A stretch of 64,000 bases of DNA from an uncultured Pseudomonadales bacterium (GTDB taxonomy: Bacteria > Pseudomonadota > Gammaproteobacteria > Pseudomonadales > Pseudohongiellaceae): assembly GCA_943842505.1 (NCBI GenBank), contig CALTDI010000010.1, positions 62,001-126,000 of the forward strand. The letters run 5' to 3'. The position numbers and the translations under genes are program-made. The first letter of the stretch is position 1, and the number at the start of each line of letters is the position of its first letter. The notes under the pieces are model-generated. The model was not told the DNA's origin and searched no databases. It saw only the letters and a program-made list of their open reading frames with translations. Below are positions 39,353-41,211 of the stretch, one piece after another.

Positions 39353-39751
39353 ATGACAGATACTGTATTTAGGTCAGAATTTCAGGTGCGAGATTATGAG
39401 TGTGATCTGCAGGGCATCGTCAACAACGCGGTCTATCAGAATTATCTGGAGCATGCCCGACACGAGTTTCTGCATAGTCGAGGCCTGGATTTCGCTGAAT
39501 TAACTGCCCTGGGAGTCATTATAGTCGTCATCCGTGCGGAGCTAGACTATAAGGGGGCGCTGCGCCCCACTGATAAATTTAGCGTGAGTGTTACTGCCAA
39601 ACCCCTGGGTCGGTTGAAGCTGGTATTCGAGCAGGAGATCAGGAGGCTTGCAGACAATGAGTTGATGCTGGAAGCCAAGATAGTCGCGGTTTCATTGAGA
39701 GATGGAAAGCGGCCTTATTTTCCGGAAGAACTGAAGAAACTGATGTCCTAG
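39353..39751 (+). CDS. Acyl-CoA thioesterase (4-hydroxybenzoyl-CoA thioesterase/YbgC-like)
   Basis: FRSEFQVRDYECDLQGIVNNAVYQNYLEHARHEFLHSRGLDFAEL hot-dog fold motif; ORF opens at 39308. Confidence 0.87.
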   Translation: MTDTVFRSEFQVRDYECDLQGIVNNAVYQNYLEHARHEFLHSRGLDFAELTALGVIIVVIRAELDYKGALRPTDKFSVSVTAKPLGRLKLVFEQEIRRLADNELMLEAKIVAVSLRDGKRPYFPEELKKLMS

Positions 39752-39807: not shown

Positions 39808-39834
39808 AAAAAAAGCCCCCGTTGGGACGAGGGC
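39808..39834 (-). terminator. Rho-independent terminator, minus strand
   Basis: Minus strand GCCCTCG-TCCCAA-CGGGGGC-TTTTTTT: 7-bp stem, 6-nt loop, 7 T. Confidence 0.8.
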
Positions 39835-39985
39835 AAGAAAGGTAAGAAGGGTAAGAAAGATAATAAAGGCATTAGAATTGCCTGTGCAGAAACAGGGCAA
39901 CCCAGTAGCAGCATTTTTATTCCATCTTTTCTAGAATAATTTGATATTGGCCAAAGGACGACAGGAGCTTCAGGGTACTCACCCG
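39808..39985 (-). ncRNA. Candidate minus-strand small RNA or orphan leader with intrinsic terminator
   Basis: No convincing gene here; minus strand carries hairpin TTGCCCTGTTTCTGCACAGGCAA, three tandem TTCTTACCC-type 9-mers and a GC-rich hairpin plus T7. The 5' end is a guess. Confidence 0.4.
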
Positions 39986-40062: not shown

Positions 40063-41211
40063 CTATCTTGTTGATTCGGTATAGCTGGCCTCGGGCATTT
40101 CAGAGGGCAGGGATCTACTTAAAATCTCGGAGGCCTCTGTGCGGCGTGCGGGGTCTTCATTGAAAACCAATTCGAAGAAAGACAGTGTCGCGATTGCCGT
40201 TACCATCTGCTGTCGCCCGGGGTGCAGTGCCTTCTCGGTCGGCATCGTCTCGCAAACGGTCAAAACGGCAGAGTCCATATCTATTCCATCGGATTCGTCG
40301 CCCAGCGCTCTGAAGGCTGCACTCGGGTCTTCATCCATATTCGAGAGCACCGCGGTGCATCCCAAACCATCGGGATGCCGCATAAGTCTAAACCAGGGCT
40401 CGGAGATGGAGCCAAAACCTAAATGGGTGCCACCTTCAATTTTCAACAGTATGCTGTTGCGCACCCTAGAGGGAATTATCGCGGCGTTGGGCTCGAAGTT
40501 GATAAGCGCATCCAAGGTGCCGGCTATCATCATAAATGGGACATCGCTAGTCTCGTAGAACTCCCTGGTAAGTCCGGCAGTGGGGCCCGCAATCGAGACC
40601 GCTGCTTTTACTCTTTCGTCGCGAAGTCTGGGGTGATAGGTGGCAAGGGTGGTTGTAATGCCGCCCAGGGAATAGCCCATCAGGGCGATGCGCAAGGAAT
40701 CAATTTCACCGGCGAAGGGTTTGGCCTCGCCAGATAATTGCAGAACGGAATCGATTAGGAAGCTGACATCGGTGGGCTGATTCACCAGATCGTTGGCGTT
40801 GGGTCCGCCTGCGGTTCCGCCAGCTGTAAGCGGAAAGTTCGCGGCCACTACGACATAACCATAGCTAGCAAGTAATTCCGCGGTATATCCCAAGTCGGTG
40901 CGTTCCGACACGAAGCCATGGCTGTGAATAACCAGAGGGTAATTGCCGGCGCTATCCTGGGGGTACCAGATGCTGGTTGGAAAAGTTCTATTAGGCAGGC
41001 TCGGTGCATAGCCGTTCGCGGCTGTCTCGCGTGTCTCGTCGACGAATACCGTCTCTGCAATGGCGATAGTATACGGGCCCGGTGTTAGCCATTCTGCGCT
41101 TGCTGAATTCTCTGGCAGTGCCTCTGGCATGGTGGCCAGGAAAGTGACCTCGAACACGACCAGTATCAAGCCGATCAGCCCAATTATTCCTATAGCAAAT
41201 TTTCGAATCAT
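40063..41211 (-). CDS. Alpha/beta hydrolase (PAF-acetylhydrolase/dienelactone hydrolase-like), secreted
   Basis: N-terminal hydrophobic segment; NYPLVIHSHGFVSERTDLGYTAELLASYGYVVVAANFP; IALMGYSLGGITTTLATYH. Confidence 0.87.
   Translation of the reverse strand: MIRKFAIGIIGLIGLILVVFEVTFLATMPEALPENSASAEWLTPGPYTIAIAETVFVDETRETAANGYAPSLPNRTFPTSIWYPQDSAGNYPLVIHSHGFVSERTDLGYTAELLASYGYVVVAANFPLTAGGTAGGPNANDLVNQPTDVSFLIDSVLQLSGEAKPFAGEIDSLRIALMGYSLGGITTTLATYHPRLRDERVKAAVSIAGPTAGLTREFYETSDVPFMMIAGTLDALINFEPNAAIIPSRVRNSILLKIEGGTHLGFGSISEPWFRLMRHPDGLGCTAVLSNMDEDPSAAFRALGDESDGIDMDSAVLTVCETMPTEKALHPGRQQMVTAIATLSFFELVFNEDPARRTEASEILSRSLPSEMPEASYTESTR

Follow-up and report, generated by a model that had tools for sequence, protein, structure and literature searches.

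What does the minus strand encode in the 311-bp gap between two genes of this 64-kb stretch of DNA (the window), and if it encodes a small RNA (sRNA), what controls that RNA and what would it act on? On the plus strand the gap is preceded by a 4HBT/YbgC-like acyl-CoA thioesterase gene (39353–39751; Pfam 4HBT_2, 4HBT), which is convergent with the element and its usual neighbor; an alpha/beta hydrolase gene (minus strand, 40063–41211) lies upstream on the same strand as the element, in a syntenic island from which it is sometimes missing. The sequence-only reading had described a minus-strand hairpin, three tandem 9-mers, and a terminator within 39808–39985, and all three are present as claimed, read directly from the sequence. 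The upper limit of that span is too generous: minus-strand 39808–39924 holds every element named, and the element, including a −35-like box, ends at about 39924.

Read 5′ to 3′ on the minus strand, the first of the three parts is a hairpin that folds as GGGTTGC-C-CTGT-TTCTGC-ACAG-GCAATTC (39875–39903), with compensatory changes in all 11 helix pairs across the family described below. An expanded single-stranded linker follows (39831–39866), comprising a decayed fourth copy of the 9-mer, TTATTATCT (39866–39858), beside the three-unit array TTCTTACCC, TTCTTACCT, TTCTTGCCC; the array had been recognized correctly and placed at 39832–39858, one base off its true position of 39831–39857. The 27-nt array occurs once in the window, even at 3 mismatches (0.00 expected). 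An intrinsic terminator, GCCCTCG-TCCCAA-CGGGGGC (39808–39834), closes the element, its stem at 39834–39815 and seven T at 39814–39808. The window RNA folds better than its shuffles, with a z score of −2.4, versions from close relatives with −3.4 to −4.3, and the divergent version in genome G009 with only −1.4.

A structured RNA family confined to one genus

When relatives were searched by BLASTN with the 311-bp gap as query, one full-length homolog (in genome G020) came back, and several more distant genomes of the same genus gave matches limited to short patches over the terminator and hairpin. With a covariance model, built first from four sequences and then from 23, the element was recovered at E ≤ 3e-5 from 32 of the 84 genomes of the genus. 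Searched across the order, the model matched 26 of 295 genomes at E ≤ 0.05, a number near chance level, and the order-wide matches inspected shared no anatomy with the sRNA family; same-family matches in another genus were set aside as apparently different elements of sigma-54 type. As an observation in its own right, other genera of the bacterial family carry short hairpin-plus-terminator elements after a sigma-54-like −24/−12 site (TTGGCACGCTAACTGCA; L088 in G117:C78, L089 in G121:C20, L091 in G119:C84, L090 in G157:C4); these candidate sRNAs of nitrogen type show no apparent relation to the present family.

Of 80 thioesterase loci from named genomes, 73 lack an sRNA copy, and a locus labeled Pseudohongiella sp., one of the nearest thioesterase relatives, gave no sRNA match; the seven that carry a copy all match genus members already found and were deposited as metagenome-assembled genomes of Gammaproteobacteria, Proteobacteria, Pseudomonadales, or the SAR86 cluster. 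No Rfam family matched at gathering or relaxed thresholds, the best weak match being anti-hemB (24 bits against a gathering threshold of 49.5, in one relative only), and a literature search found nothing on sRNAs of Pseudohongiella. As judged from the genomes searched, this sRNA family is confined to one genus of marine gammaproteobacteria; as far as our tools can show, it is previously undescribed, although the kind of RNA is a known one.

In an alignment of 32 distinct rows, fitted to the covariance model and hence leaning towards structure, 89% of cells in the two stems are paired, and 18 of the 19 pairs contribute a total of 102 double-compensatory cells; sliding the partner strand gave at most 54% pairing and 24 such cells, and no shuffle reached the observed pairing or compensatory values. 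Alignment-free folds of single sequences recovered the same layout of hairpin, linker, and terminator in most members, and stem exchanges are clear in single genomes, as in GAATCGC/GCGATTC versus GAGTTGC/GCAATTC. In relatives the full order is TGAAATAAAA, a 17-nt spacing, GTTC(T/C)TTAT, the hairpin, a single-stranded (U)U(A/G)CCCUU kept in the linker by most members, and the terminator. The element is a conserved intergenic RNA structure with compensatory changes, as expected of a bacterial sRNA. The terminator stem is conserved with compensation; the triple 9-mer is not a conserved feature.

These substitutions also bear on whether the element is a leader peptide or attenuator, for which the sequence-only reading had offered a MPLLSFLPFLPFLPSSQRG peptide. 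A 91-aa frame does start at 39914, with an ATG at the same place in several relatives, but frames shift between relatives, genome G035 lacks the ATG, and substitutions follow base pairing rather than codons. The following gene lies on the opposite strand in most loci, and we found no conserved short frame with a downstream same-strand operon. The leader-peptide reading fails because the frame and start codon vary among relatives while the stems are kept, and we consider it scarcely credible.

The element persists as its neighbors change

Synteny was not built into these results, since the covariance model contains no neighbor information. The sRNA is convergent to the same 4HBT acyl-CoA thioesterase in 23 of 32 loci, 3–117 nt from the matched region, and seven more loci belong to the same gene island (SDR – methyltransferase-like – thioesterase – sRNA – hydrolase – SIR2), of which they lack some genes; the remaining two share with several other loci a DUF255/Thioredox_DsbH gene upstream on the other strand. 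Flanking genes therefore vary while the element stays.

That the sRNA persists as neighbors come and go argues against two cis-acting explanations. The element could be the 3′ untranslated region and terminator of the hydrolase gene at 40063–41211, or an RNA processed from it, given that this gene lies upstream on the same strand, 81–278 nt away, in the window and some relatives and that the terminator would then serve it. In the fetched flank, however, only 7 of 32 loci have a hydrolase homolog upstream; at the others the upstream gene is SIR2, a divergent DUF255 gene, or something else, and the element is kept, making this origin very unlikely. We likewise regard it as highly improbable that the element regulates the mRNA of the convergent thioesterase as a cis-antisense RNA: the 23 copies on the opposite strand within 3–117 nt of the thioesterase stop would fit such a role, but the nine loci without a thioesterase in the fetched flank keep the element, and conservation tracks the element's own stems rather than the thioesterase. 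Conservation, covariation, and synteny together support the earlier proposal of a stand-alone minus-strand sRNA well, and a non-coding RNA at the 39808–39924 site is strongly supported.

Promoter-like boxes of ECF type precede the hairpin

Two boxes stand 5′ of the hairpin in the family, TGAAATAAAA and GTTC(T/C)TTAT or GTCTTA. The GAAAT-to-GTYY distance is 17 in 24 of 32 members and 18 in two more, as counted in the model-fitted alignment, which favors constant spacing; the sequence of the spacer is not conserved. The two boxes look like a promoter for an ECF sigma factor. ECF26-type promoters of Sinorhizobium meliloti combine a −35 GGAATA(A) with a −10 GTTCT or GTCT(T/A)AT at 17–18 nt (PMC6180224), and the family boxes share both spacing and letters with them (PMC6180224), although the organisms belong to different bacterial classes and the family −35 is TGAAATAAAA. 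In a mapped S. meliloti example, GGAATAGACCGACGACTCAGCCGTTCTGACACAa, the start (in lower case) is 11 nt downstream of the GTTC's G (PMC6180224). ECF26-like −35 and −10 boxes at 17–18 nt are found in family members and are degenerate in the window copy. The E. coli fecA promoter is similar in layout, which had suggested a FecI-type promoter; published ECF26 promoters fit better.

A motif search of 84 genomes gave 30 matches versus 14 for the reversed control, the excess consisting of seven sRNA loci and seven orthologous sites that precede a gene for a ~1000-aa protein with DsbD_N, DsbD_TM, and Thioredoxin_7 domains; being orthologous, these seven count as one independent event. In one genome the motif precedes an AhpC/TSA-type gene. 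A DsbD-like membrane protein in an ECF regulon has a precedent in that of Bradyrhizobium EcfF, whose motif differs (PMC3420878). One of the seven orthologous sites, G000:C12:89233-89262 (L285, L290), is in the genome of the window itself, before the gene for a 998-aa DsbD-like protein; the arrangement is conserved in seven genomes. An ECF sigma factor linked to redox conditions probably controls the sRNA family.

Scanning the sigma loci of three genomes for the motif revealed no convincing upstream copy, and the cognate sigma was not found among them; rpoE and another ECF operon have upstream motifs distinct from the sRNA-type boxes. Other features of sigma loci were noted. Upstream of the ECF gene of one ECF operon (L138, L139, L140), three species conserve a separate sequence, GTAACTTTTT-N-CGTCTTTAA, and autoregulation is likely. 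At L123, L124, and L126 an ECF sigma gene lies between genes for an EF-hand protein and a Metal_resist (CnrX-like) protein, a candidate metal-sensing sigma system, and in the genome of the window a TAG stop breaks the ECF sigma reading frame at L142 (G000:C8:146988-147194).

The boxes might alternatively be parts of a longer RNA (~90 nt or more) made from a promoter further upstream, with TGAAATAAAA an A-rich Hfq site, GTTCTTAT a second seed, and the window hairpin still whole. Nothing in the 5′ part is better conserved than the boxes; motifs of the TAAAA type can bind Hfq, and a TTATAAT-like site lies further upstream in two loci (L049, L050). We nevertheless consider a longer RNA unlikely: the inter-box spacer varies in sequence but hardly in length, a protein gene is preceded by the same two boxes, and no shared sigma-70 site was seen upstream of the boxes.

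The window copy lacks most of the putative −10/start region and has an expanded linker

Taking the boxes as promoter elements, the window copy is damaged where its relatives are intact. Its terminator is clear and its −35-like box, TGGAATAAAA (39915–39924, minus strand), represents a box conserved in the 32 members at a fixed distance from the −10, but the −10-like box is reduced to a degenerate GTTGCC (39896–39901), which is correctly positioned but abuts the hairpin arm because 16 nt have been deleted. Relative to G020 and G093 the window lacks ~16 nt (...GGGTTCCTTATCTACAGAGTTGCCC... in G093 corresponds to ...GGGTTGCCC... in the window), apparently through deletion between two GTT repeats: where relatives read GTTCCTTATCTAC...GAGTTGCC, the window has GTTGCC joined to the hairpin arm. 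The GTT has kept its proper distance from the −35 box, but nothing else of the −10 and the start region survives; a start 11–12 nt after it would fall at 39890–39889, inside the hairpin loop. The promoter-motif score of 14.7 is near the bottom of the family range (13–29) and nevertheless marks the best such site in the 64-kb window. Neither the boxes nor the deletion had figured in the sequence-only reading.

The linker of relatives contains a single CUUACCCUU or CAAUUGCCCUU. A three-unit linker occurs only in the window species and in G093, where a similar array accompanies an intact promoter region; G020 has one unit. The triple 9-mer, initially taken as the key feature, is thus a local expansion in two species and not the conserved part, and given the damaged promoter, the repeats that first drew attention are an expansion in a damaged copy. 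As the deletion removes most of the −10/start region, the window copy may be weak, truncated, or decaying, and is an atypical, perhaps decaying member of the sRNA family.

Candidate seed and targets

The predicted RNA ends in a U tail, seven T in the window terminator, and hfq is present in all six genomes tested. Within such an RNA the CCCUU of the linker would be the natural seed, pairing with AAGGG, and the family would comprise Hfq-type antisense sRNAs of ~70 nt that are stress-induced. The 9-mer repeats had been proposed to complement sequences near ribosome-binding sites. No support for this emerged from the sequences searched: AGGGTAAGA, the complement of the window repeat, occurs 140 times in five genomes versus 135 for the reversed control, which is no enrichment, and in a sample of 30 loci the start-codon-proximal seed matches were inside long frames, with none at ribosome-binding sites. 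These counts and the sampled loci yielded no target.

Discussion

We put at roughly 70% the probability that these loci form a family of trans-acting sRNAs with an ECF-type promoter, a ~70-nt Hfq-type RNA, and a CCCUU seed, of which the window holds a damaged copy; within this model the analysis shows the conserved RNA with compensatory pairing, the promoter-like boxes shared with a dsbD-like gene, the deletion relative to G020 and G093, and the presence of hfq, and the sigma identity, transcription start, Hfq use, seed function, and targets are putative. In intact members, an ECF-type sigma would read the −35 TGAAATAAAA and the −10 GTTC(T/C)TTAT or GTCTTA 17 nt apart; if starts are placed as in the mapped ECF26 promoters, transcription would begin 11–12 nt beyond the −10, where the hairpin starts. 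The ~70-nt product would consist of the hairpin, a short single-stranded CCCUU linker, and the terminator with its U tail, presumably held by Hfq, and the linker could pair with AAGGG-type mRNA sequences, altering translation in redox or envelope stress. The window copy, with its deletion and three 9-mer units, would be weakly expressed or start inside the hairpin loop. A more specific version is doubtful: that the sRNA belongs to an ECF-controlled thiol-redox regulon with the DsbD-like reductase and that in the window, with the start deleted and the seed tripled, it has become a hairpin-less multi-seed RNA.

Known systems offer partial parallels. In Enterobacteria, MicA and RybB are short, sigma-E-dependent, ECF-driven sRNAs of Hfq type with a terminator U tail, features that the proposed family RNA would share; they carry the seed at the 5′ end and are transcribed from promoters with GAACTT/TCTGA, whereas the candidate seed of the family lies between hairpin and terminator, and the family has no Rfam match. 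GsrN of Caulobacter is a sigma-T/ECF-dependent sRNA, reported to belong to an ECF sigma regulon, in which a C-rich single-stranded stretch acts on an mRNA leader (PMC5869019); the proposed family RNA would resemble it in both respects. The GsrN seed, however, is a C-rich 5′ loop and its sigma is of the alphaproteobacterial EcfG type, and we claim no sequence relation.

Together, these results give a little-studied group of uncultured marine gammaproteobacteria an sRNA family that is well supported and had not been described, and its putative tie to a recognizable promoter class makes the sigma factor and the stress signal testable. Set against its close relatives, the window copy shows clearly how an sRNA can lose its start region as its likely seed is multiplied. 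If the regulon version were true, the window species would represent evolution in progress, from a single CCCUU seed to a three-unit array.
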